Shown here piece after piece: positions 4,755 to 17,239 of a DNA stretch of 64,000 nucleotides. The translations under genes were made by a program, and so were the position numbers. The notes beneath the pieces are model-generated. The model saw only the letters and a program-made list of their open reading frames with translations. It was not told the origin of the DNA and did not search any database. Location: contig NZ_CP041406.1 of the NCBI RefSeq assembly GCF_014905135.1, positions 558,001 to 622,000 of the forward strand. Direction: 5' to 3'. The DNA is from Sulfurimonas paralvinellae. GTDB taxonomy: Bacteria; Campylobacterota; Campylobacteria; Campylobacterales; Sulfurimonadaceae. The stretch's first letter is position 1, and each line of letters starts with the position of its first letter.

Positions 4755-4836
4755 TATAGTTACAGCCTTTTTGGTGTAATTATAGCATTTATATAAGGTA
4801 AAAGTTTAATGGATGAGAAGTTGTTTGTATAAGGAG

Positions 4837-4870
4837 TATCAAGCAGCGGCTAAAGCCAAACTGCTTGATA
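4837..4870. other. Perfect two-tier inverted repeat downstream of the porin gene
   Basis: Arms tatcaagcag (4837-4846) and ctgcttgata (4861-4870) are exact reverse complements, with an inner ggc-taaa-gcc mini-stem in the loop. It lies 42 bases after the porin stop on the minus strand and upstream of the M3 peptidase start. No T-run follows on either strand, so a simple Rho-independent terminator is doubtful. It may be a 3'-end stabilising structure or a protein-binding site. Confidence 0.5.
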
Positions 4871-4911
4871 TCGGAGTTATATGAAATTTGTATTGGTAAA
4901 CTATTCAGACT

Positions 4912-6249
4912 CTATTTTGTAGAGAATTTATAGTCAAGTTGTGCCCAGAATTTCTGAGTGTCTTTAGTCCATGCGTTAACATAATCACCATTACCAAATG
5001 TACCTTGTACAGCTTTACCTTTTGAATAGTTAGCGTATTTTAAAAGACCTGTAAGACCATTCACACCTGGAATTTTATTGACATAAACAACATCAATCTC
5101 TGAACCTAAGTCATCAGTTGTTCCAGAACCACTAACAGCATTCATTTTTTTATCTGCCGTAAAGTCATGATAAACTGCTAAAAGTTTTCCGAAACCTTTT
5201 GCTTTATATCCTAAACGAACATTTGCATCAATTAAACCGCCATCTGGAGTAGAAAGAAATTTATCTGCCCAACCATTAAATTTATGCCCTGTAGCAAGAG
5301 GAGTGGTAAATGTTTTATCTTTTCCACTTGTATCATTCATAGAAGTACCACTTAAAAACTCATAATTCGCACCAACTAAAATACCGGAGATATTTGCACC
5401 TAAATCTAAGTTATAGTAAGATGCATCTACTTTGACACCTTGTGTACCATTTTTATGAATTTCCATTGATGGATCTGCTTGCTGTGCATATTCTGCACGA
5501 TAGTTTAGTTTTACCGCATCCATTTTTACATTACCTGTTGCAGCAATACCATATGTATCATGAGTATTTGCAATCATATAATCATAAGCAGTAACTTTTA
5601 ATGCTGGCATTACACTATATGCAGCATGTAAAAGCACTGTATTTGTATCATATGTGTTTTCACCATATAGACCATCATTATTTGCTAAACTTTTTACTCC
5701 TTGAACACCATATACCCATGCAGCTAATACAGAAAGATTTTTAATAGAGTTGTTTGCAATAAATACAGAGTCATAAGAACGTTCTAGTTGTCTCCAACCA
5801 ACTGTACCAATGAAACGTTGGTTGTCAAGATTTACCTGACCACGACCCGCATGTAAGACAGTATCCGCAACTTTATAGTTAATTTCAGCATTTGAAATCA
5901 TAGCTTTTTCTGGATCAGCAACAGTTGCATACTCAGTTTGGCCATTTGATGTACTATTATACGTGTTAGAACCAAAATCATTCACTGAAATAATACCGAC
6001 CGATGCAGAAAGACCATCAACATCCAGAAGATCACCAGTGACTTTTAACTTCGTTCTTGCAGTATATGCATTGGCATCTTTTACATGTTGACCTGGAGAG
6101 TTATCTACATTTACATTTTCCCATCTAGGACGGATTTGTCCTTCAAGTACTAAGTTATCTAAAATGTTAATACCATCAGCAGCACTTACGCTACTAAAAG
6201 AACCCATAATTGCTGTTAAAGCAACAGCTGACATTGTAATTTTTTTCAT
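4912..6249 (-). CDS. Outer-membrane porin (campylobacterotal major porin type)
   Basis: The 445-residue precursor has a clear Sec signal peptide (MKKITMSAVALTAIMG...VSA, cleavage near residue 23). The remainder is beta-rich with alternating hydrophobic residues, few cysteines, and an aromatic C-terminal strand ending FWAQLDYKFSTK. These are the marks of a trimeric outer-membrane beta-barrel. The order LEGQIRPRWENV at the start of the mature part resembles Opr/MOMP-type porins of Sulfurimonas and Campylobacter. The start is fixed by a strong AAGGAAG ribosome-binding site. It is transcribed divergently from napA across a short region with an FNR-like box, which suggests expression linked to nitrate or low oxygen. 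The solute is unknown. Confidence 0.88.
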   Translation of the reverse strand: MKKITMSAVALTAIMGSFSSVSAADGINILDNLVLEGQIRPRWENVNVDNSPGQHVKDANAYTARTKLKVTGDLLDVDGLSASVGIISVNDFGSNTYNSTSNGQTEYATVADPEKAMISNAEINYKVADTVLHAGRGQVNLDNQRFIGTVGWRQLERSYDSVFIANNSIKNLSVLAAWVYGVQGVKSLANNDGLYGENTYDTNTVLLHAAYSVMPALKVTAYDYMIANTHDTYGIAATGNVKMDAVKLNYRAEYAQQADPSMEIHKNGTQGVKVDASYYNLDLGANISGILVGANYEFLSGTSMNDTSGKDKTFTTPLATGHKFNGWADKFLSTPDGGLIDANVRLGYKAKGFGKLLAVYHDFTADKKMNAVSGSGTTDDLGSEIDVVYVNKIPGVNGLTGLLKYANYSKGKAVQGTFGNGDYVNAWTKDTQKFWAQLDYKFSTK

Positions 6250-6339
6250 TTTCTTCCTTTTTTGTTTATAAGCTAAAGCCTATATATAATGTTAAGCTTA
6301 AAGATTTAAGCTAGACTACTTTTCAAAGGCCCTGACAAA

Positions 6340-6345
6340 ATTATA
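6340..6345 (-). promoter_or_regulatory. Predicted porin -10 element (extended)
   Basis: On the minus strand the sequence reads TGcTATAAT, an extended -10 hexamer. The start site would be near 6333, giving a leader of about 84 bases before the porin ATG. The FNR-like palindrome at 6367-6380 is then centred about 40.5 bp upstream, a normal activator position. Confidence 0.55.
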
Positions 6346-6366
6346 GCATATTTTGAAACTATAAAT

Positions 6367-6380
6367 TTGACATATATCAA
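6367..6380. promoter_or_regulatory. FNR/CRP-family binding site between porin and napA
   Basis: The 14-mer TTGAC-ATAT-ATCAA matches the FNR consensus TTGAT-N4-ATCAA with one mismatch. It lies in the 215-base gap between divergent porin and napA genes. It is centred at 6373.5, about 41 bp from the predicted start sites of both. The protein that would bind (an FNR/CRP-family regulator) is not encoded in this window. Confidence 0.65.
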
Positions 6381-6402
6381 TTATTCTTTAAGCTAATAGT
6401 GA

Positions 6403-6408
6403 TATCAT
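6403..6408 (+). promoter_or_regulatory. Predicted napA -10 element
   Basis: TATCAT at 6403-6408 would place the start near 6415. The FNR-like box is then at about -41.5, the class II activator position. There is no good -35, which fits an activator-dependent promoter. The assignment rests on this spacing. Confidence 0.5.
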
Positions 6409-6464
6409 TGTACCGTTAATGGACACCTTAACAACAAAGTTCAAAACTAATTTGAGGAGAAAAT

Positions 6465-9314
6465 ATGTCACTTTCAAGAAGAGAATTTCTTAAAAGTTCA
6501 GCGGCAGCATCGGCAGCAGCGGCGATCGGTATGAGTGTACCGGCAGAGCTCGAAGCAAATGCAGGCGCAGCTGAAAGTAATTGGAGATGGGACAAGGCAG
6601 CTTGTCGTTTCTGTGGTACGGGATGTGGAATTATGCTGGCAACTACAGGCGAAGGCGCAGATAGAAAGATTGTTGCAGTTAAAGGAGACCCGGCAGCTCC
6701 GGTTAATCGTGGTCTAAACTGTATCAAGGGGTATTTTAATGCGAAGATCATGTATGGGGCTGACCGTCTCACGCAACCGCTTCTTCGTGTAAATGATAAG
6801 GGTGAGTTTGACAAAAAAGGTAAATTTGCTCCTATTTCATGGAAACGTGCTTATGATGAAATGGAAAAACACATCAGAATCGCACTGAAAGAGAGTGGTC
6901 CTGAAGGTGTAGGTGTATTTGCATCTGGTCAATACACTATCATGGAAGGGTATGCTGCTCAAAAGATGATGAAAGCAGGTTTCAGATCAAATGCGATCGA
7001 TCCAAATGCTCGTCACTGTATGGCATCTGCGGTTGTTGGTTTCTATCAGACTTTTGGTATCGATGAGCCTTCTGGATGTTACGATGATATCGAGCTTACA
7101 GATACAATTGTAACTTGGGGTTCAAACATGGCAGAAATGCACCCGATTCTTTGGTCTCGTGTAACTGACAGAAAACTAAGTGATCCAGATCGTGTAAAAG
7201 TTGTCAATATTCAGACTTATACACACCGTACTTGTGATTTAGGTGACTTTAACATCATCTTCAGACCAAATACTGACCTTGCACTTTGGAACTACTTAGC
7301 GCGTGAGATCGTTTACAATCATCCAGAAGCTATTGATTGGGATTTCATCAAGAAAAACATCATTTTCGCAGCTGGTCCAGTAAACATTGGTTATGGTTTC
7401 AGACGTGCTGGTGAAAAATCTGTAACACCTGTAAGACCTGATGGTAGTGCCGGTAAATATGATGCTAAAGAGATGGAAATCTATAATAAAGAGATGAGTA
7501 AAGTCGTTTCAGAGCTTGAAGGTCCTGCGTTAGAGCCGTATGGCTATAAAGCTGGCGATACGATGAAAAATACTGCCGGTACTTTAAAACACTGGGAAAT
7601 CTCTTTTGAAGAGTATAAAAAATCTTTAGCTCCGTATACACTAGACTATACTGCTGAACTTTGTAAAGGTGATCCAGATGAGTCACTTGATAGCTTCAAG
7701 AAAAAACTACAGGATTTAGCAGCACTTTACATTGAAAAAGATAGAAAAATCGTTAGTTTCTGGACTATGGGTATGAATCAACATACACGTGGTACATGGG
7801 ATAATACACTTTCATATAACGTTCACTTCATGCTTAACAAACAAGCGCGTCCAGGTTCAGGTGCATTCTCACTTACTGGTCAACCTTCTGCTTGTGGTAC
7901 TGCTCGTGAAGTTGGTACATTCGCTCACCGTTTACCGGCTGACTTAATGGTTAAAAACCCTAAACACAGAGCTATCGCTGAGAAAAAATGGCATATTCCT
8001 GCTGGAACATTGAACCCTGTAGGTAATCAACACATCATGAAAATCCATAGAGATATTGAAGATGGCGTTGTTAAATTTGCATGGGTAAATGTTTGTAATG
8101 CTTACCAAGATTCTGCGAATGCAAAACACTGGGTAAAAGCGGCACGTGAGATGGACAACTTCATCGTAACATCTGACGGTTATCCTGGTATTTCTGCTAT
8201 GGTATCTGACCTTATCTTGCCATCTGCTATGATCTATGAGAAATGGGGAGCATACGGTAATGCTGAGAGACGTTCACAACACTGGAGACAACAAGTACTT
8301 CCTGTAGGAAACGCTATGAGTGATACATGGCAATGGGTTGAACTTTCAAAAAGATTTACTGTTGATGATCTATGGGGACCATATACACTTAGAAACGGTA
8401 AAAAACTTGCAGATGTTCGTCAAAAAGCATATGATATGGGTTACAAACCAGATACTACTATGTATGAAATCTTATATGCAAATGATAGAGCTAAGAAAAA
8501 CTATCCACTCGCATTGGATCAGTTCCCACAAAAAGGGTATGACAACTCTGAATGTATCGGTGATGCCAGAAATGTTGAAGGCAGTGACGGAAAAGTATTT
8601 AAAGGATACGGTTTCATGATTCACCAATACTTATGGGAAGAGTATGCTTCATTTGGTCGTGGTCACGGTCATGACTTGGCAGACTTCGTTACTTACCATA
8701 AAGTTCGTGGACTTAAATGGCCAGTTGTTAATGGTAAAGAGACTGCATGGAGATTTAACGTAAACTTTGACCCATATGCAGCGAAACATGCAAAAGAAAA
8801 CGGTAGAGGCAGTGAGTTCGCGTTCTATGGTCCACTCGCAAAAGCACTTCCACATGGAAACTTGACAGGCGTACAAGACAAAAAGAAAAAACCATTACCG
8901 GATAAAGCAAAAATCTTTGCTCGCCCATATATGGATCCACCAGAAATGCCGGATGATGAGTACAATCTATGGTTATGTACAGGACGTGTACTTGAACACT
9001 GGCACTCAGGAACTATGACTATGCGTGTACCTGAACTCTATCGTGCAGTTCCGGAAGCACTTGTCTATATGCATCCAGATGCAGCGAAAGCTAGAGGCCT
9101 CAAAGACAATGACCTATGCTGGGTTGAATCTCGTCGTGGTAGAGTAAGAGCTCGTGTTGAGACTCGTGGACGTAATAGACCTCCAAAACCATTAGTATTC
9201 GTACCATGGTTCGATGAGCGTGTATTTATCAATAAAGTGACATTGGATCAAACATGTCCTATGTCAAAACAGACAGACTTTAAAAAATGTGCTGTAAAAA
9301 TCTATAAAGCATAA
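6465..9314 (+). CDS. napA: Periplasmic nitrate reductase catalytic subunit NapA
   Basis: NapA reduces nitrate to nitrite in the periplasm using Mo-bis-MGD and one [4Fe-4S] cluster. The 949-residue precursor starts with a twin-arginine signal (SRREFLK at residues 4-10, then an Ala-rich stretch). The cluster Cys are C47, C50, C54 and C86, followed by the conserved Lys in NCIKGYF. The Mo-ligand Cys lies in RHCMASA at about residue 185. The protein is longer than E. coli NapA (828), as in Campylobacter, because of an internal insertion. A strong gaggag ribosome-binding site precedes the ATG. It heads the operon napAGHBFL-PAS-napD and is probably under the upstream FNR-like site. Confidence 0.98.
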
Positions 9315-9338
9315 TTTTAAAAAGAAGGAAGCATTACT

Positions 9339-10151
9339 TTGAGCAATCATTCAAAAGCGAAAGAGCCTCTCAGCGATAGAAGAAAATTTATTCTTAATAT
9401 GGCTAAAGGTGTCGGATATGCAGCGGTAGGCGGTTTCTTATGGAGTGCCTATCTCGATGAAGCGAAAGCTTCACCGCTGATTTTGCGTCCACCTGCAGCG
9501 ATACCGGAGAAAGATTTTCTAAAGACCTGTATCAAATGTGGTTTGTGCGTTGAAGCGTGTCCTTACGATACGCTCAAGCTTGCAAAGCCGGGTGATCATA
9601 AACCAATGGGTACACCGTTCTTTACACCGAGAGATATTCCATGCTATATGTGTGAAGATATCCCCTGTGTTCCGGTATGTCCAAGCGGTGCACTTGATGA
9701 GTCAAGTGTGACTGTCAATGGTCAGCTTGATATCAATACGGCTGATATGGGACTTGCAGTAATCGATGAGAACAGCTGTATTGCTTTTTGGGGAATTCAA
9801 TGTGATGCTTGTTATAGAGCTTGTCCAATTCTGGATAAAGCGATAACAATAGAATACGACCAAAATAAAAGAACGGGAAAACATGCCTTTTTGAAACCGG
9901 TAGTACATGCTGATGCCTGTACCGGTTGTGGAATGTGTGAGCATGCCTGTGTTACTGAAAAACCTGCTATTTTCATCCTGCCGCGTGAGGTTGCGATGGG
10001 GAAAGCAGGAAGTCACTACATCAAAGGTTGGGACAAAAAAGATGAAGCACGGCTAAAAGATGCGCATGCTATCCATACAACGACAAAAGTAAGTAAGAAA
10101 AAAGCTGTTGATAAATTAAATGGCGGTCTAGAAGGTTTGCTCAATGAGTAA
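9339..10151 (+). CDS. napG: Ferredoxin-type quinol dehydrogenase subunit NapG
   Basis: NapG is the periplasmic iron-sulfur partner of NapH and passes electrons from menaquinol towards NapB/NapA. The 270-residue protein begins with a TTG at 9339 after an aagaagg ribosome-binding site. It has a twin-arginine-like segment (DRRKF, residues 13-17) followed by a hydrophobic stretch. Four [4Fe-4S] motifs follow: CIKCGLCVEACP near 62, CYMCEDIPCVPVCP near 104, CIAFWGIQCDACYRACP near 147 and CTGCGMCEHAC near 193. napH overlaps its 3' end by 8 bases. With no napC here, NapGH is the expected quinol route. Confidence 0.96.
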   Translation: MSNHSKAKEPLSDRRKFILNMAKGVGYAAVGGFLWSAYLDEAKASPLILRPPAAIPEKDFLKTCIKCGLCVEACPYDTLKLAKPGDHKPMGTPFFTPRDIPCYMCEDIPCVPVCPSGALDESSVTVNGQLDINTADMGLAVIDENSCIAFWGIQCDACYRACPILDKAITIEYDQNKRTGKHAFLKPVVHADACTGCGMCEHACVTEKPAIFILPREVAMGKAGSHYIKGWDKKDEARLKDAHAIHTTTKVSKKKAVDKLNGGLEGLLNE

Positions 10152-10974
10152 GTTATGGAATAATTACAGATACCTTATATTAAGAAGATTTGTGCAGATT
10201 GGGATTTTGATTCTTTTTATCGGTGCAAATGCATGGGGATGGAAAATCCTTGAAGGTAATCTCAGTTCATCACTGCTCTTTGGTGTCATTCCAATGAGTG
10301 ATCCTTATGCTGTTATACAGATGGTCATAGCGGGTGCTGTCGTTGCGACTGATCTGCTCATCGGTATGGCGGTTGTGGCGCTGTTTTATTTTTTAATCGG
10401 CGGGCGTGCATTTTGTTCATGGGTATGTCCTATAAATATGGTGACAGACAGTGCAAACTATCTTCGCCGTATTTTTGACATTGACAGAGCACAACTGCAA
10501 CGTCAACCCATTACAAGAAGTGTCCGATACTGGGTACTTGCAATTAGTCTGATCGTATCGGCTTTTATGGGTATAGCCGCTTTTGAGTTTATCTCGCCAA
10601 TCTCGATGCTGCATCGCGGTATTGTATTTGGTATGGGATTTGGCTGGGCGGCTGTCGGTTTGATCTTTCTTTTTGATCTGTTCGTTTTAAAAAATGGATG
10701 GTGTGGTCATATTTGTCCACTTGGTGGATTCTATTCACTTTTAGGAAAGTTTAGTTTTATTAGAGTACATCATTTAGAAGAGAATTGTACTCTTTGTATG
10801 AAGTGTAAAGTGGTTTGCCCTGAAAAGCAGGTGCTTCACATGATAGGTAAAGAGTCAATTCCTGTACTTTCGGGTGAGTGTACAAACTGTGCACGCTGTA
10901 TCGAAGTATGTGATGATGATGCTTTGAGATTCTCAATAAGAGATTTTATTCAAAATAAAAAAACGGGAGAGTAA
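10144..10974 (+). CDS. napH: Quinol dehydrogenase membrane subunit NapH
   Basis: NapH is the membrane subunit that oxidises menaquinol with NapG. The 276-residue protein has four to five predicted membrane helices. Between them are the two CxxxCP motifs typical of NapH (CSWVCPINM near residue 97 and CGHICPLGG near 190). Near the C-terminus are two [4Fe-4S] motifs (CTLCMKCKVVCP and CTNCARCIEVC) expected in the cytoplasm. It overlaps napG by 8 bases and is followed after 1 base by napB. Confidence 0.96.
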   Translation: MSKLWNNYRYLILRRFVQIGILILFIGANAWGWKILEGNLSSSLLFGVIPMSDPYAVIQMVIAGAVVATDLLIGMAVVALFYFLIGGRAFCSWVCPINMVTDSANYLRRIFDIDRAQLQRQPITRSVRYWVLAISLIVSAFMGIAAFEFISPISMLHRGIVFGMGFGWAAVGLIFLFDLFVLKNGWCGHICPLGGFYSLLGKFSFIRVHHLEENCTLCMKCKVVCPEKQVLHMIGKESIPVLSGECTNCARCIEVCDDDALRFSIRDFIQNKKTGE

Positions 10975-10975
10975 A

Positions 10976-11647
10976 ATGAAAATTTTAACAAAGATTACGA
11001 TAGGTTTAGCTGCTTCGGCTCTGCTTCTTGTCGGCTGTAATTCTGCAGCTACAGGAACAAGTGCAAAAGCTGATAAAAGTGTTACAAAACCGACAATTAC
11101 AGAAGCTAATTTAGGTTACAGAGGTACGACAGATCTTTTAAAAGAGGATGTTGTTCCACCTGCTGTTGCATATCATTCAGCACCTCCGGGAGCTTCAAAA
11201 CGATTTAAAAGAGCATATCAAGATGCGCCGCCGATGATTCCACACTCAACTGAGGGGTTATTGCCTATCACTAAGAACAACAATGCATGTCTTGGATGCC
11301 ATATGCCTGCTGTAGCGGCAAGTATGGGTGCAACGCCGATTCCGGTTTCTCACTTTACTAACTTCAGACCGAAAACTGCAGTTAAAGGTGATGAAATTCT
11401 TAAAAATGGTAAAGCGATTAAAAATACTTCATCTGAGAAGTTAGCGAATGTATCTATCAAAGTTGATAAAGATGAGCAGCATCTTTATGCCGGTAGATAT
11501 AACTGTTCACAATGTCATGCTCCGCAAGCTACGAACGACCTAGTAGATGATAACCACTTCAAACCGGTTTACACTGCTCCTGATGGTGCTGAAAAATCAT
11601 CTTGGAACCAGTCTAAATGGATGAAAGATATCGATACTTCGAAATAA
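10976..11647 (+). CDS. napB: Diheme cytochrome c subunit NapB, lipoprotein-like N-terminus
   Basis: NapB delivers electrons to NapA. The 223-residue precursor has two c-type heme sites, CLGCH at 105-109 and CSQCH at 177-181. A His in AYHSAP near 67 and another near 126 are plausible distal ligands. The region YHSAPPGASKRFKRAY and the spacing are NapB-like. Unusually, the signal peptide ends in LLVGC (Cys21), a good lipobox, followed by a Ser/Thr/Ala/Lys linker. The protein may therefore be lipid-anchored rather than soluble. It is longer than E. coli NapB. It sits between napH and napF. Confidence 0.94.
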   Translation: MKILTKITIGLAASALLLVGCNSAATGTSAKADKSVTKPTITEANLGYRGTTDLLKEDVVPPAVAYHSAPPGASKRFKRAYQDAPPMIPHSTEGLLPITKNNNACLGCHMPAVAASMGATPIPVSHFTNFRPKTAVKGDEILKNGKAIKNTSSEKLANVSIKVDKDEQHLYAGRYNCSQCHAPQATNDLVDDNHFKPVYTAPDGAEKSSWNQSKWMKDIDTSK

Positions 11648-11651
11648 ATAG

Positions 11652-12149
11652 ATGGAGAGAAGAGAGCTATTTAGCTTTCTTTCTTCCTCTGTAAAAGAGG
11701 CAGTCAGAGAGCAAAAAGATGAAATGATGATAATCAGACCTCCATACTATAGTGATGTGGATGCTTTTGTCACAGAGTGTCAAAACTGCGAAGGGGAATG
11801 TGCCTCTTTGTGTCAAGAGCAGATAATAGTCATTACAGAAGATAAAACGCCGCAGCTGGTTTTTAACTCTCGCGGATGCACCTACTGTGATGAATGTGCT
11901 GTTGCATGTCCAAGTGATGTGCTTTTGGTTGAAAACAAGCATCTTATTGAAGCGTCGATCGTTATCAACAAAAACAAATGTTTGAGCTGGCAGGGTGTGA
12001 TGTGTTTTTCATGCAAGGATCCCTGTCTTGAAAATGCCATTGATTTCAAGGCAATGTTTATGCCTGAGATAAATGATAAATGTACGAATTGTGGTTTTTG
12101 CATCGGCAGATGTCCTGCTGATGCCATAGATATTAAAAAGGTAAGTTAA
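11652..12149 (+). CDS. napF: Ferredoxin-type protein NapF
   Basis: NapF is a cytoplasmic iron-sulfur protein thought to help maturation of, or electron supply to, NapA. The 165-residue sequence starts MERRELF and lacks a signal peptide. It has Cys-rich motifs for [4Fe-4S] clusters: CQNCEGECASLC near residue 42, CTYCDECAVACP near 77, CLSWQGVMCFSCKDPC near 112 and CTNCGFCIGRCP near 143. This is the NapF layout with an extra N-terminal group. It is 4 bases after napB and overlaps napL by one base. Confidence 0.92.
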   Translation: MERRELFSFLSSSVKEAVREQKDEMMIIRPPYYSDVDAFVTECQNCEGECASLCQEQIIVITEDKTPQLVFNSRGCTYCDECAVACPSDVLLVENKHLIEASIVINKNKCLSWQGVMCFSCKDPCLENAIDFKAMFMPEINDKCTNCGFCIGRCPADAIDIKKVS

Positions 12150-13102
12150 TGCGTTATATAGTCATTTTTTTTATGCTTCTGTCATCTCTTTATGCACAAA
12201 AGCTATTGAATCCGCTTTATACATATAAGGTCACGCAGGGGCTTGCTACAGATGTCCTATACAATAACGGCAGTCTTTATATATCTTCAGACAGCGGTAC
12301 TGTAGATATCTATGACACAAAAACTAAAAAAAAGAGGAAAAGCATAAAGCTTGAGAAGATAAAAGATTTTATGGGAGATGCAATCGATTCGAAAATTTTT
12401 ACATTGGATTTTTTGGATCAAACTCTTTTAATCCTTTCACAGGATAATGGCGGTTACAGCCGCGTGAACCTGTACAAAAATAAAAAAAATGCGCAAATCA
12501 TTTCAAGTGACCAAAAGCTCAATATCATTAAAGCGAAATTTATAGATAAAGACACTATTTTGCTTGCTCTTATCAGTAATGACATTATTTCATACAATAT
12601 CAAAACAAAAAAGAAGAATTGGACAACACAGGCATCTATGTCGAAGTTTTCCAATTTTGCTCTCAATAATGACAGGTCTACTGTGGCCATTGCAGATGAA
12701 AGCGGTGAAGTACATTTGATAGATACGAAAACAGGGAATAAACTAAAAACATTGAGCGGGCAAAATGTAGATAATCTTTTTGGTGTCGCTTTTGCAGGTG
12801 ATATTGTTTTAACCGGAGGGCAGGACAGACGTGCCGGTGTTTATAATGTTAAAAACGGAAGTGCATACTATAAAGCTTCCAATTTTTTTGTATATGGTGT
12901 AGGACTGAGTCCAAGCGGAAAAAGAGGTGCCTACAGCTGTGATATTGATGATAATGTCGAGGTGTTTAATACTGCTACACGAGAGAGTTTAGGAAAATAC
13001 CGCTCAACAAAGAAAGTTGTCAACAGTATCTATTTTATAAATGAGCATGAATTTTTTATTAACAGCAGTGCGAAAACTGTTGGTTACTATAAAGTCAAAT
13101 AA
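12149..13102 (+). CDS. napL: NapL, periplasmic beta-propeller protein of the nap operon
   Basis: The 317-residue protein has an N-terminal signal peptide (IVIFFMLLSSLYA) and a body of WD40/quinoprotein-like repeats, for example VHLIDTKTGNKLKTLSG around residues 190-206. It occupies the napL position found in Campylobacter, Wolinella and Sulfurimonas nap operons. The molecular role is not settled; a part in Nap maturation or efficiency is suggested for the family. There is no cofactor motif that I can see. It begins on the last base of napF. Confidence 0.85.
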   Translation: MRYIVIFFMLLSSLYAQKLLNPLYTYKVTQGLATDVLYNNGSLYISSDSGTVDIYDTKTKKKRKSIKLEKIKDFMGDAIDSKIFTLDFLDQTLLILSQDNGGYSRVNLYKNKKNAQIISSDQKLNIIKAKFIDKDTILLALISNDIISYNIKTKKKNWTTQASMSKFSNFALNNDRSTVAIADESGEVHLIDTKTGNKLKTLSGQNVDNLFGVAFAGDIVLTGGQDRRAGVYNVKNGSAYYKASNFFVYGVGLSPSGKRGAYSCDIDDNVEVFNTATRESLGKYRSTKKVVNSIYFINEHEFFINSSAKTVGYYKVK

Positions 13103-13115
13103 GGGAGTATAGGAA

Positions 13116-13562
13116 ATGATTGAATATAATGAGAGTGAGTTTTTGGTCGAAACTGAAGTGCCTGAAGATGAACTTATTATCTCCAGGACAAACTTGAAAG
13201 GAAACATTACTTATGCCAATGAGACCTTTTGTGTCATAAGCGGGTATCATGAAGAAGATCTCCTTGGGAAACCACACAATATAGTACGCCATCCAGATAT
13301 GCCGAGTGCTGCGTTTGAAGATCTGTGGAGTACGATAAAGTCGGGAAAACAGTGGGTTGGAATCGTTAAAAATATGCGTAAAGATAAAGGATTTTACTGG
13401 GTGAAAGCCATTGTGTCAGGTGTATACAAAAATGGAGAACTGGTAGAGTATAAATCACTTCGAACACCGATATCTTATGAAACTAAGTTAAAATATCAAA
13501 GATTGTATGATAAAATGCGTAGTGAAAACAATGAAAGAACAAGAAAAGTAATTTACGAATAA
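13116..13562 (+). CDS. Stand-alone Aer/CetB-like PAS domain protein in the nap operon
   Basis: This is a 148-residue soluble protein that is almost entirely one PAS domain of the Aer redox-sensing kind. It shows IISRTNLKGNITYANETF near 25-42, the hallmark NIVRHPDMP near 59-67, and WVGIVKNMRKDKGFYW near 83-98. In Aer and Campylobacter CetB such domains bind FAD and report cellular redox state. There is no membrane, HAMP or methyl-accepting part here and no cetA-like gene nearby. It lies 13 bases after napL and 18 before napD, so it is probably expressed with Nap. A role in nitrate-linked energy taxis or redox sensing is inference. Confidence 0.88.
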   Translation: MIEYNESEFLVETEVPEDELIISRTNLKGNITYANETFCVISGYHEEDLLGKPHNIVRHPDMPSAAFEDLWSTIKSGKQWVGIVKNMRKDKGFYWVKAIVSGVYKNGELVEYKSLRTPISYETKLKYQRLYDKMRSENNERTRKVIYE

Positions 13563-13580
13563 TAATAAAAGGAATTAAAG

Positions 13581-13979
13581 ATGAATATATCAAGTATAGT
13601 AGTACAGACAATGCCGAAATTTTTAGATGAGGTGGTTGAGAGCCTTAAGAATTGTGAAGCGTGTGATTATCATCTACATGATGAAAAGGGTCGTATCATT
13701 GTTACTATAGAAGGTGAGGATGTAAGTGAAGAACTTGGAAAACTCAAAGTGATCGAAGCTATTCCTCATGTGATAGCTGCAGATATGCAGATGGCCTATT
13801 CCGAAGATGAACTGGATGCAAATATAAAGGTCATCAATGAATCAGATGCTGTTCCGGCTGTTTTAAATGATGCTGACGTTGATATTGACAGAGTCGTTTA
13901 TCATGGAGATTTAAAGAAAAAAGATGGTGAGCTTCAAGAGTTTGCAAAGGATCTGAGTAATCCTACAGGAGTGAAATAA
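13581..13979 (+). CDS. napD: NapD, NapA signal-peptide chaperone (extended)
   Basis: NapD binds the twin-arginine signal of NapA and holds export until cofactor loading is complete. The first ~80 residues (MNISSIVVQTMPKFLDEV..., ending near VIAADMQMAY) form the ferredoxin-like NapD fold with the usual short beta-alpha-beta pattern. The protein is 132 residues, compared with about 87 in E. coli. The extra ~50 residues at the C-terminus are acidic and lack recognisable motifs. An aaaggaatta ribosome-binding region precedes the ATG. The stop overlaps the next gene by one base. Confidence 0.88.
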   Translation: MNISSIVVQTMPKFLDEVVESLKNCEACDYHLHDEKGRIIVTIEGEDVSEELGKLKVIEAIPHVIAADMQMAYSEDELDANIKVINESDAVPAVLNDADVDIDRVVYHGDLKKKDGELQEFAKDLSNPTGVK

Positions 13980-14290
13980 TGGGTGTTGTTTTCAGTTCAA
14001 CAATTAAAATCGATGAGAATGCGAAATGGTTCATCGAGATAGAAGATGCTACTGATCCTGATGATATTCGAAGAGAAGTTTGCTTTGATCTTGATGAATA
14101 TGAAACCAAGATAGAAGAGATGGGTAGCGAATACGGTGGTCACGTCGATGAGGTAAAATGGCTTAAAGATGAGAATGTACCACCTGTAGTCGTTGATGAG
14201 ATCCGTGTGAAAATGGCAGAACAGCGTGCGAAAATTGAAGAGAAGTTGGGTGAACCACTTACTCCTGTCGCTGAGAAAAAAGAAGAGTAA
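13979..14290 (+). CDS. Small acidic protein of unknown function after napD
   Basis: I do not recognise this 103-residue protein. It has no signal peptide, membrane segment or metal-binding Cys cluster (one Cys). It begins with a short beta-like part (SSTIKIDENAKWFIEIED), continues into an acidic helix-rich middle, and ends in a charged tail (AEKKEE). It starts on the last base of napD, so translation is likely coupled and it is the last gene of the nap operon. The position suggests an accessory role in Nap assembly or control, but that is inference from context only. Confidence 0.75.
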   Translation: MGVVFSSTIKIDENAKWFIEIEDATDPDDIRREVCFDLDEYETKIEEMGSEYGGHVDEVKWLKDENVPPVVVDEIRVKMAEQRAKIEEKLGEPLTPVAEKKEE

Positions 14291-14295
14291 AGGAA

Positions 14296-14321
14296 CTATC
14301 TATTATTTAAGCAATAGATAG
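14296..14321. terminator. Inverted repeat between convergent nap and kinase operons
   Basis: Arms ctatctatt (14296-14304) and aatagatag (14313-14321) are exact complements around an 8-base loop. It lies just after the last nap gene and covers the stop of the kinase gene on the other strand. It is AT-rich with no clear T-run, so it is at best a weak two-way terminator. Confidence 0.4.
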
Positions 14322-15949
14322 ATCAATAGAAAGTTTACAAAAGTCATGATCATAAAAGCCCGTTTGTAAAAAACAAGCGGTGATTTTTCGATAAGCGGCG
14401 CATTTTTGATAAAGTAGGGTTTTACTTTTTGGGGATGCGTGAGCTCATAATACATTTCAGAGTAGTGGGAATATCTTTGTTCCTTGTCAATCGCAATACT
14501 TCGCATAATTACACTGTCAAGCCATTCCGGAATATTTTTGTTATAGGTACTTGGTTTTTTAGCTTCTTTGAAGGTAGGATTTTGAAATGGTTCTATCTCT
14601 CCGTAAGGGTACTTTCCACTGAGTGCAAAATAGAGTGTCACACCGATAGCAAAAATCTCAGTCGTTTCACTGATAGCTTCTCCCAAAAAACGTTCCGGTG
14701 CAAGAAAGCTTGGTGTTCCGGCTTTTGAATCTGTTGAAAAGATTTCGGTAATACTTCCAAAGTCAATAATCTTAAATCTGAGATTTTCATCATCGTCTTT
14801 AGCTATCATAATGTTTTGTGGTTTTACATCACCGTGAACCAGATCATACTTGAGTAAAAACTGTGACATTTTTAAAAGTGTATCAGCCAATTCAACACTG
14901 TCATCTATCGTTAATTGTTTATGCGTGAGATAGTGATGAAGGTTTTCACCGTGAAAAAGCTGCATAACATAATAGCGCATGGACCGTGTCTTTGGAATGA
15001 CTGCCTTAGGAAAAAAGTTGGCTTTGAGGCGTTTTGCATTCCATGTTTCTTTTACAAAAAGATCAAGCAGTGATTCATCTTCAAGTGCTTCATAAGGAGC
15101 AAATTTCAGTACATAATCTTTTGTTTTTTTATGAACAAGCCAGGTTCGTTCATTTTGAATAAGTGGTTTGAGAAGCTTATAACCATCAATGATCTGTCCT
15201 TTTTTAAGCTTCTGGGGTATTGTGAGCTTTTGGTGTCTGAGGGTTGCCAGTTCGTCAGCTTTGAGTACCTCTATGATAACGGCGGTTGTATCATCAGGCA
15301 AGTTGTCATCTTTCAATGTACTTGCTTTTTTGACAACTGCGTGAGCATTGCCGAGTTGTAGAGTTTTACTCAGTGTATTGCCGTCGAGAACATTATAAAG
15401 ACCATCACTGCACAGAAGAACTTTGTCATCTTTTTGTACTATGTTCTCAAAGTAGTAAGGCTCAACTTCTTCAGAGATGCCGATGGCCTGCGTGAGGACA
15501 TTTTCATAACCCTCTTCGTCCATTGCATGATCATTAGAGAGTTGATTGAGTTTATGATCTCTATAGAGATAAACTCTGGAATCTCCTACATTGGCACCAT
15601 AAAGCCGATTTCCCTGAATGACAACTATGGTCAAAGTCGTGACAAGTTCAGGAGTGTTATAGTTTAGTTGTGATTCTTTGTAGAGGATAGCATTGATGGA
15701 GCTTATAAATGAACGAATTGATTTTTCAATACTCCAGGATTTTGGACGGATTTTGAAATTGTTCATCAAATGTTGTGTCGTTCGCTTTGCTGCTTCTGCA
15801 CCTTCTACAGCACTGCCGACGCCATCACAGACAATGGCGACTGTCAGGTCACCAATGGTTTTTACATCATAAAAATCGTCACCGGTCAGTTCTTTACGTT
15901 TGGCAAGTGAAAATCCGGAAAACTTTAGCGTGCTTGATGCCATTAGCAT
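14303..15949 (-). CDS. Bifunctional PP2C phosphatase / Ser-Thr protein kinase with C-terminal membrane tail
   Basis: This 548-residue fusion has two parts. Residues ~1-240 form a PP2C phosphatase, with metal-binding motifs VAIVCDGVGS, GDSRVYL, LLCSDGLY and DDTTAVI. Residues ~255-510 form a Hanks-type kinase, with VLKFAP Lys, catalytic HGDVKPQN, IDFGS and APERF. The glycine-rich loop is poorly conserved. The last ~20 residues (IMTFVNFLLIYLLL) form one membrane helix, giving a tail-anchored enzyme. It lies 9 bases downstream of narK in the same operon. Similar phosphatase/kinase genes sit beside assimilatory nitrate genes in Pseudomonas, which supports a regulatory role in nitrate uptake. The substrate is unknown; NarK is one candidate. 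Confidence 0.9.
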   Translation of the reverse strand: MLMASSTLKFSGFSLAKRKELTGDDFYDVKTIGDLTVAIVCDGVGSAVEGAEAAKRTTQHLMNNFKIRPKSWSIEKSIRSFISSINAILYKESQLNYNTPELVTTLTIVVIQGNRLYGANVGDSRVYLYRDHKLNQLSNDHAMDEEGYENVLTQAIGISEEVEPYYFENIVQKDDKVLLCSDGLYNVLDGNTLSKTLQLGNAHAVVKKASTLKDDNLPDDTTAVIIEVLKADELATLRHQKLTIPQKLKKGQIIDGYKLLKPLIQNERTWLVHKKTKDYVLKFAPYEALEDESLLDLFVKETWNAKRLKANFFPKAVIPKTRSMRYYVMQLFHGENLHHYLTHKQLTIDDSVELADTLLKMSQFLLKYDLVHGDVKPQNIMIAKDDDENLRFKIIDFGSITEIFSTDSKAGTPSFLAPERFLGEAISETTEIFAIGVTLYFALSGKYPYGEIEPFQNPTFKEAKKPSTYNKNIPEWLDSVIMRSIAIDKEQRYSHYSEMYYELTHPQKVKPYFIKNAPLIEKSPLVFYKRAFMIMTFVNFLLIYLLLK

Positions 15950-15958
15950 AATCCTTTT

Positions 15959-17239
15959 TTAGATTCGTCCGCCGGCTGCAACACCCCAGGTCGTTCTCCA
16001 TCTTGTTTTTACCAGAGAGATTCCAATGATAGCAACAAGTACAACACCGGCAAAGATCATAAATCCTGCTGCGTATCCGTCAAATGCACCTTTGGACCAT
16101 CCAAGTGTTTTAATAAGCGCAGTACCGCCAAGACCACCGGCAGCACCGATGATACCTGTCATTATACCAATATCTTTACCAAATCTTTGCGGTACGAGCT
16201 GAAAGACTGCGCCATTTGCCATACCAAGGTTTGCCATTGTAAGAAACAACACAACGATAGCGACCCAAAAAGGTAAAACAATAGTTGCATTGAGGATTGC
16301 AAGCAGGGCAACTGTTCCAAAGAAAAAGTAGAGTGATTTCACACCACCGAGTTTATCGGCAACTGCTCCGCCTACAGGTCTTAAAACTGCACCTGCAAAG
16401 ATAGTAAGTGCTCCAAAGTAACCTGCGATTACTTTTACATTTGGTTCATCAAAGACATTCATACCAAAACTGCTCATATCGGCTTGGTATGTGTTCATAA
16501 GATAAACTTTCATATATCCTGCAAATCCTACAAAACCACCGAAACTTACTGCATAGAATAGGTTGAACCACCATGTGTCTTTATCTTTTAGAAGTTTTGC
16601 GTAATCTTTTAACTTTTTAGGACGTGGTGTATAAACTTCTTCTGGCGCATCTTTAGCTAAAAAGATGTAAGTTATAAAAATAATTGTTGATAAAATACCG
16701 CCAACTAAAAATACTGCCTGCCATCCCCATATCTCTGCGATTTTTGGAGCGAAAAGGAAGTCGATAACAACACCGATGTTACCGGCTCCGGCGATACCAA
16801 GAACAACACCTTGGAGTTTTGGCGGATACCATTGACCAGCCTGTGGCAGTGCAACAGCAAACGATGCCCCGGCAAAACCCAAGCCGACAGCGACAACAAG
16901 CAGTTCATTGTATGAAATGTGCTCACCTCGAAAAAAAGCATAAAATAAAACCGAGATGACAACGGTTTGTGCCATTAAAGCTGTCTTTTTAGCTCCAAAT
17001 TTATCAACACTGAATCCAAGCAAGATACGAAGAAGTGCACCGGCTAAAATAGGTATGGAAAGCAAAGTCGCTTTTTGTGAAGGACTCATAATAAAACCAT
17101 GCATTGCCAAAGATTGACTTATCTCTGTTGCCAGTGGTCCGAGCATTGTCCAGACCATAAAACTAAAATCGAAATACAAAAAAGCTGCAAAAAGTGTTTT
17201 TGCATCTCCTTGACCTTTGAGGGCTTTAAAACTTGCCAT
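15959..17239 (-). CDS. narK: Nitrate/nitrite transporter of the NarK/NasA MFS family
   Basis: This 426-residue inner-membrane carrier has about 12 predicted helices. It carries both nitrate-signature motifs of the NNP family: GIAGAGNIG in the fifth helix region (about residue 150) and GAAGGLGG in the eleventh (about 360). Arg residues in TM2 (ALLRILLG) and TM8 (LRPVGG) match the nitrate-binding arginines of NarK. It would bring nitrate to the cytoplasmic NasA/NirA pathway or exchange nitrate for nitrite. The ATG has an AAGGAAAA site. It heads the operon with the PP2C/kinase gene. Confidence 0.94.
   Translation of the reverse strand: MASFKALKGQGDAKTLFAAFLYFDFSFMVWTMLGPLATEISQSLAMHGFIMSPSQKATLLSIPILAGALLRILLGFSVDKFGAKKTALMAQTVVISVLFYAFFRGEHISYNELLVVAVGLGFAGASFAVALPQAGQWYPPKLQGVVLGIAGAGNIGVVIDFLFAPKIAEIWGWQAVFLVGGILSTIIFITYIFLAKDAPEEVYTPRPKKLKDYAKLLKDKDTWWFNLFYAVSFGGFVGFAGYMKVYLMNTYQADMSSFGMNVFDEPNVKVIAGYFGALTIFAGAVLRPVGGAVADKLGGVKSLYFFFGTVALLAILNATIVLPFWVAIVVLFLTMANLGMANGAVFQLVPQRFGKDIGIMTGIIGAAGGLGGTALIKTLGWSKGAFDGYAAGFMIFAGVVLVAIIGISLVKTRWRTTWGVAAGGRI

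Follow-up and report, generated by a model that had tools for sequence, protein, structure and literature searches.

A single putative Crp/Fnr-family box lies between a divergently transcribed outer-membrane porin gene and napA in the window (the whole 64-kb stretch of Sulfurimonas paralvinellae DNA analysed here), and from this one site the porin and the nap genes are probably controlled together, judging by the predicted starts on either side of it. This reading is built on direct observations of the site, its spacing to predicted -10 elements, its conservation, the linkage between porin and nap genes, and the joint absence of the site and of close orthologues of its candidate regulators.

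One box between two predicted promoters

A 215-bp gap separates the divergent porin and napA genes, with the following features in and around it:

4912–6249, minus strand: outer-membrane porin, 445 amino acids, OprD/AlgE-like barrel; one match in the genome at E 0.001
6340–6348, minus strand: porin extended -10, TGC-TATAAT, with a predicted +1 at about 6333; 8 of 9 positions invariant in six species
6367–6380, no strand assigned: putative Crp/Fnr-family (Nss/DNR-type) box TTGACATATATCAA, 14 bases, centre at 6373.5
6400–6408, plus strand: napA extended -10, TGA-TATCAT, with a predicted +1 at about 6415; 7 of 9 positions invariant in six species
6415–6432, plus strand: GTTAATGGACACCTTAAC, a possible start-proximal stem-loop (from a fold) where the nap mRNA is predicted to begin; it recurs in several nap leaders
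6465–9314, plus strand: napA, periplasmic nitrate reductase catalytic subunit; NF010055 and TIGR01706 above cut-off

The box TTGACATATATCAA matches the TTGA-N6-TCAA dyad. The first-pass annotation had described it as a palindrome, which holds for the symmetric TTGA and TCAA but not for the fifth base (C versus T), so that the palindrome is imperfect. The box is separated from the -10 by 21 nt on the porin side and 22 nt on the napA side, which places its centre 40.5 bp from the predicted porin start and 41.5 bp from the predicted napA start (each +1 was placed seven bases past the -10, and all starts are predictions). The site, the -10 hexamers and both centre distances had been claimed from the letters alone, and all were borne out on these predicted starts. 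Measured from the predicted -10s, the centre lies at about the 41.5 bp of a class II activator site for both genes, and one site stands at an activating distance on both sides.

We found no -35-like hexamer 17 bp from either -10 (AAATTT and ATTATT occupy these positions), and a sigma-70 scan of 5800–7000 reported neither predicted promoter, both being without a -35. The scan returned five sites against 3.1 expected, about the chance number, of which two are weak sites on the minus strand upstream of the predicted porin promoter (6434–6407 and 6408–6380). The box itself contains an exact TTGACA on the plus strand, which could be read as a plain sigma-70 -35 hexamer with no regulator site present. 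This is extremely improbable: by coordinates, TTGACA is separated from the napA -10 by 30 bp, and TTGATA on the opposite strand of the box from the porin -10 by 29 bp, both too far to act as a -35; the scan found no promoter using TTGACA; and the second half-site, TCAA, is as conserved as the first in an alignment of six species.

To our count, TTGACATATATCAA is the sole perfect match to TTGAY-N4-RTCAA in the window, where one-mismatch boxes are not enriched (13 found versus 16.8 expected). A perfect match arose in 217 of 200,000 simulated gaps (first-order Markov chain, same composition), and the 2.08-Mb genome holds 18 perfect sites versus 4 for the reversed pattern. A chance palindrome was rejected on these counts together with permutation controls upstream of porins (below). 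At random window positions, a -10 of at least 5/6 at a gap of 21–23 nt occurs in 2.7% of cases, and one of 6/6 in 0.2%.

Conservation of the box and its spacings

Six species have a complete divergent porin/napA pair (G000, G012, G035, G062, G079 and G093). When aligned, they agree at 13 of the 14 box positions, at 8 of 9 positions of the porin -10 and 7 of 9 of the napA -10, and at 5 of 18 and 8 of 19 spacer positions. A seventh species (G098) has the box and both -10s, its porin being cut by the contig end. With this species included, the porin side carries TATAAT at 6/6 and a gap of 21 nt in 7/7, and the napA-side gap is 22 nt in six species and 23 nt in G062. The proposal that one dimer would occupy the class II position for both genes is thus supported by conservation of the box and of the spacings, the napA side being 23 nt in that one species.

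The napA box was present in 60 of 79 named loci and in 23 of 30 genus loci, two overlapping sets. The named set comprised 81 napA loci including that of the window, less L024 and L065, which had under 100 bp upstream; the genus set comprised the best 30 places, a sample that leans to near relatives. The best napA -10 lies at a gap of 22 nt in 42 of the 60 named and 18 of the 23 genus boxed loci. For comparison with the porin side, we scored the opposite side of the box in 63 boxed napA loci without a marked divergent porin, after removal of duplicates between the named and genus sets. A -10 of at least 5/6 facing away from napA at a gap of 21–23 nt was found in 9/63, and one of 6/6 in 2/63, one of the two (L007) being cut 147 bp upstream. 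Because nine control loci show one, a good opposite -10 is by itself weak evidence.

Porins elsewhere in the genus

Porin homologues were detected in 72 of 135 genus genomes (E 0.001). Sixty of the 80 porin places were taken, the 20 omitted being partial, contig-cut or weak matches, and L137 and L146 were dropped for having under 100 bp upstream, leaving 58 upstream regions. A perfect box lies within 200 bp upstream of 20/58 porins, compared with 0–5 for half-site permutations and 0–1 for other gap lengths. In 20/20 boxed porins the gap to the -10 is 21 or 22 nt.

Placement was classified by hand (for L144, L155 and L165 from the DNA tail of the upstream gene, compared by eye; 'narK-like' describes the end of the upstream protein, also read by eye). 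On this classification, boxes precede 6/10 porins divergent to napA, 11/19 at the nap 3' end, 2/2 divergent to a Crp/Fnr gene near napA and 1/1 directly before napA, and 0/1 beside a nap-type small gene on the other strand, 0/3 after a narK-like gene and 0/22 unlinked. Nap-linked porins are therefore boxed in 20/33 cases versus 0/25 for the others (p = 4.5e-7, a value that ignores relatedness), leaving 13/33 nap-linked porins without a perfect box. In the two loci with a divergent Crp/Fnr gene near napA (L167 and L173), the box stands at the porin's class II distance. The three porins after a narK-like gene are L147, L149 and L176, the last with a one-mismatch box.

The first-pass annotation had inferred that the porin would belong to the nitrate/anaerobic regulon. 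Membership of the nitrogen-oxide regulon is supported, because porins elsewhere in the nap region often have their own box at the same spacing. An alternative is that the box serves napA alone, with a constitutive porin promoter whose distance from the box is a side effect of the intergenic region being compact. Many loci lacking a divergent porin do have the napA box, the porin's extended -10 is a perfect TATAAT that might function alone, and the 13 unboxed nap-linked porins fit such an arrangement. We nevertheless consider it unlikely, since nap-linked porins not divergent to napA have a box in 14/23 cases, always 21–22 nt from the -10, the porin-side spacing is constant in seven species though the spacer drifts, and the porin side has no -35. 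Among the nap-3'-end porins, 8/19 lack a perfect box of their own, mostly in genomes with a Crp2 orthologue (see below); these may depend on read-through from nap.

A maximum-likelihood tree, labelled by hand, unites the divergent boxed porins with one group of nap-3'-end porins that have their own box (99/99) and places a second such nap-3'-end group separately. As judged from these sequences, the porin either came within reach of the napA box or retained a box during relocation.

Eight box-less porins picked by eye (L150, L152, L153, L155, L156, L163, L164 and L168) have in their leaders a common hairpin of about 21 pairs, which shows several compensatory changes. Single-base shuffling gave z from -2.3 to -7.6 in the eight versus 0 to -3.3 in nine boxed porins, and the hairpin was not seen in box-less L160 and L174. 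It is possibly a processing or stability element.

Genomic sites and candidate regulators

Sorted by hand on mechanical open reading frames (ORFs), the 18 perfect sites in the genome comprise 8 intergenic sites and 10 inside ORFs. A -10 of at least 5/6 at a gap of 21–23 nt accompanies 5/8 intergenic versus 1/10 intragenic sites. The intergenic sites border napA/porin, nosZ, ccoN and the siroheme decarboxylase genes ahbAB (matches above family cut-offs), as well as a NirA-like reductase gene, an operon following a Crp/Fnr gene, and a pair encoding a cytochrome c and a COX1-type protein that we read as norCB (name inferred). This gene set is the expected content of a nitrogen-oxide regulon. The eighth intergenic site, a perfect box with TGA-TATCAT at a gap of 22 nt, stands before a gene for a 46-residue secreted-looking peptide beside a radical-SAM gene (L103:1723-1950, minus strand).

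The genome encodes three HTH_Crp_2 proteins. Crp2 (L102:3332-3973), directly upstream of a boxed operon, has TPETLSR in the recognition helix; Crp3 (L099:4717-5382), near nosZ, has QPATLSR; and Crp1 has no motif of either type. An ExxSR helix pairs with TTGA half-sites. On their sequences, Crp2 and Crp3 are candidate regulators of the box. FNR proper carries [4Fe-4S] ligand cysteines at its N-terminus. An N-terminal cysteine cluster is absent from all three translations, and FNR proper was rejected for this reason.

According to passages of PMC6682613, Campylobacterota encode no FNR orthologue, and Wolinella has NssA, NssB and NssC, which act in response to nitrate, NO and N2O. Nss proteins are the regulators described for TTGA-N6-TCAA in this phylum in parts of PMC6682613 and PMC11539149, and part of a 2025 review (PMC12285233) lists the three Wolinella proteins as activating nap and nrf. 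For Nitrosophilus, part of PMC11539149 reports exact TTGA-N6-TCAA sites at 48–49 bases upstream of the predicted napA, norE and nosB starts, close to the class II distance. The label 'FNR-like' originally given to the box thus probably misnames its regulator, given the missing cysteine cluster and a consensus for which Nss proteins have been described; Nss/DNR-type appears the better term.

A box missing from relatives with an intact gene pair had been named as grounds for refuting the proposal. The box is indeed absent from 4/10 divergent pairs (G001, G029, G042 and G119), but these four genomes are without close orthologues of both candidate regulators: none has a Crp2 match above 38% identity, and at E 1e-20 a Crp3 match appears in G029 only, a marginal one (E 5.2e-21). 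Each keeps one to three HTH_Crp_2 proteins. Of the six boxed genomes, five have a Crp2 of at least 65% identity and five a Crp3 of at least 64%, and every one has at least one of the two. Some of the genomes are incomplete.

The nap cluster and the porin

Downstream of the gap, the nap genes run in the order napA-G-H-B-F, a propeller-like gene, a PAS gene and napD:

9339–10151, plus strand: napG; NF007012 above cut-off
10144–10974, plus strand: napH; NF007013 above cut-off
10976–11647, plus strand: napB; PF03892 above cut-off
11652–12149, plus strand: napF-like ferredoxin; TIGR00402 at 81.9 bits, under the 102.2 cut-off
12149–13102, plus strand: beta-propeller-like gene, which from gene order we take to be in the napL position; profile matches below cut-offs only
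13581–13979, plus strand: napD; PF03927 above cut-off
13979–14290, plus strand: small gene after napD, matched by eye on sequence

The window NapA is closest to loci of an Epsilonproteobacteria symbiont (97%) and of Sulfurimonas metagenome-assembled genomes (MAGs). The small gene after napD precedes the porin in 19 of the porin loci examined, which is not so in the window. Just past the nap cluster lies a NarK-family transporter gene (15959–17239, minus strand; score below the family cut-off). A search of 4800–16000 against Rfam at gathering threshold gave no match. In the nap leader of L122, the GTTAATGGACACCTTAAC-type loop is four bases shorter with unchanged arms, which fits an mRNA stem-loop better than a protein dyad.

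The window porin had no Pfam or NCBIfam match at E 0.001, and aligned homologues gave weak Pfam matches to Alginate_exp and OprD. Its predicted structure, of moderate confidence (pLDDT 70.9), has an OprD-type barrel fold. With Foldseek the model matched OccK8/OprE (E 8e-16), OccAB porins, the C. jejuni major outer-membrane protein (MOMP) and AlgE, so that the porin resembles OprD/Occ porins, MOMP and AlgE in predicted fold and differs from them in sequence (10–15% identity among the matches listed). OprE is anaerobically induced in Pseudomonas. For OprD-like porins of Sulfurovum, part of PMC10045233 proposes sulfur uptake, a role other than nitrate passage. A literature search of partial coverage, judged by titles and abstract openings, found nothing on this porin with nap in Campylobacterota.

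A second box between two predicted -10s

In the same genome, one box also lies between two -10s in the gap between ahbAB and met8 (G000:C1:650400-650413; L102, about 7901). This box was present in 30/30 loci (L199–L228; the own genome and 29 relatives), the best 30 of 83 ahbAB places and hence a sample leaning to near relatives. On the ahbAB side, a -10 of 5/6 occurs at a gap of 21–23 nt in 30/30. On the met8 side the -10 reaches 5/6 in 21/30 and 3–4/6 in 9, giving good -10s on both sides in 21. The sharing of one site by two predicted promoters thus recurs in the genus.

Discussion

We propose that an Nss/DNR-type activator of the Crp/Fnr family would bind the single box at 6367–6380. With both predicted starts about 41 bp from the box, the dimer would sit in the class II position of two promoters with extended -10s and no usable -35, from which it could recruit polymerase to the porin on the left and to napAGHBF...D on the right. 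Within this clade, the porin would share the nap box, and in sister lineages a porin at the end of the nap cluster would use its own copy. We infer that the protein binds and activates, that its signal is nitrate, NO or N2O rather than O2, and that the porin has a role in nitrate/nitrite passage.

The same geometry could instead mark a repressor site, or a switch of one promoter against the other. Two polymerases served by a single dimer at -41 would be in competition for one stretch of DNA, and in Nitrosophilus, where denitrification genes are constitutive under anaerobiosis, one Crp/Fnr regulator is negatively related to nosZ, as part of PMC11539149 reports. However, -41.5 is the usual activator position (PMC3688515, in part), and the listing of NssA/B/C as activators of nap and nrf likewise argues against this reading, which we judge very unlikely. 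Within the preferred reading of shared activation, the two promoters may fire alternately if the geometry follows that of E. coli, because each polymerase would then place its alpha C-terminal domain over the opposite promoter.

Several points count against co-control. Sulfurimonas indica NW8N (L022), which has the porin/napA arrangement, did not grow on nitrate as sole acceptor under the conditions tested, according to part of PMC7952632. To this are added the constitutive Nitrosophilus genes and the negative relation of one regulator there to nosZ, the four box-less pairs whose genomes retain HTH_Crp_2 proteins, the 8/19 box-less nap-3'-end porins, the 9/63 control loci with an opposite -10, and the 10/18 genomic sites inside ORFs.

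More speculatively, one Nss dimer placed symmetrically between two -35-less promoters might be a deliberate coupling device. At nap/porin it would tie outer-membrane nitrate entry to the reductase, with the porin a dedicated nitrogen-oxide-anion channel, and at ahbAB/met8 it would tie two haem d1 arms; as both polymerases need the same dimer, the two outputs would be kept in ratio. This is possible but, in our estimate, rather doubtful.

Regulation of respiration in Campylobacterota has been called poorly understood (PMC6682613, in part). The present analysis offers a testable regulon with defined predicted promoters, draws into nitrate metabolism, through linkage and shared control, a porin that lacks a confident family assignment, and presents a recurring promoter design, in which one dimer serves two class II promoters, as a model for activator sharing between polymerases.

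El-Robh and Busby reportedly described, in 2002, divergent E. coli promoters activated from one CRP site. The type of arrangement is thus already known, with one dimer serving two promoters, CRP there and, as proposed, an Nss-type protein here. The porin link and the recurrence at haem d1 genes seem new to us; a partial search, judged by titles and abstract openings, returned no literature on either. Among E. coli FNR-activated promoters with a known start, the site lies at -41.5 ± 4 in 19/23, and the class II promoters of narG, nirB, nrfA and dmsA have it near -41.5 as here (both from part of PMC3688515). Unlike those promoters, the ones in the window have an extended -10 without a -35, in a genome where we found no FNR with a cysteine cluster. 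The nearest likeness is to the Nss-regulated nitrogen-oxide genes of Wolinella succinogenes and the Crp/Fnr sites of Nitrosophilus labii, which, as far as the published passages describe them, have the same consensus and a napA target, in Nitrosophilus at a similar distance to the predicted start. Those passages make no mention of a porin, and the window site differs from the sites they describe in that it also faces a divergent porin promoter.
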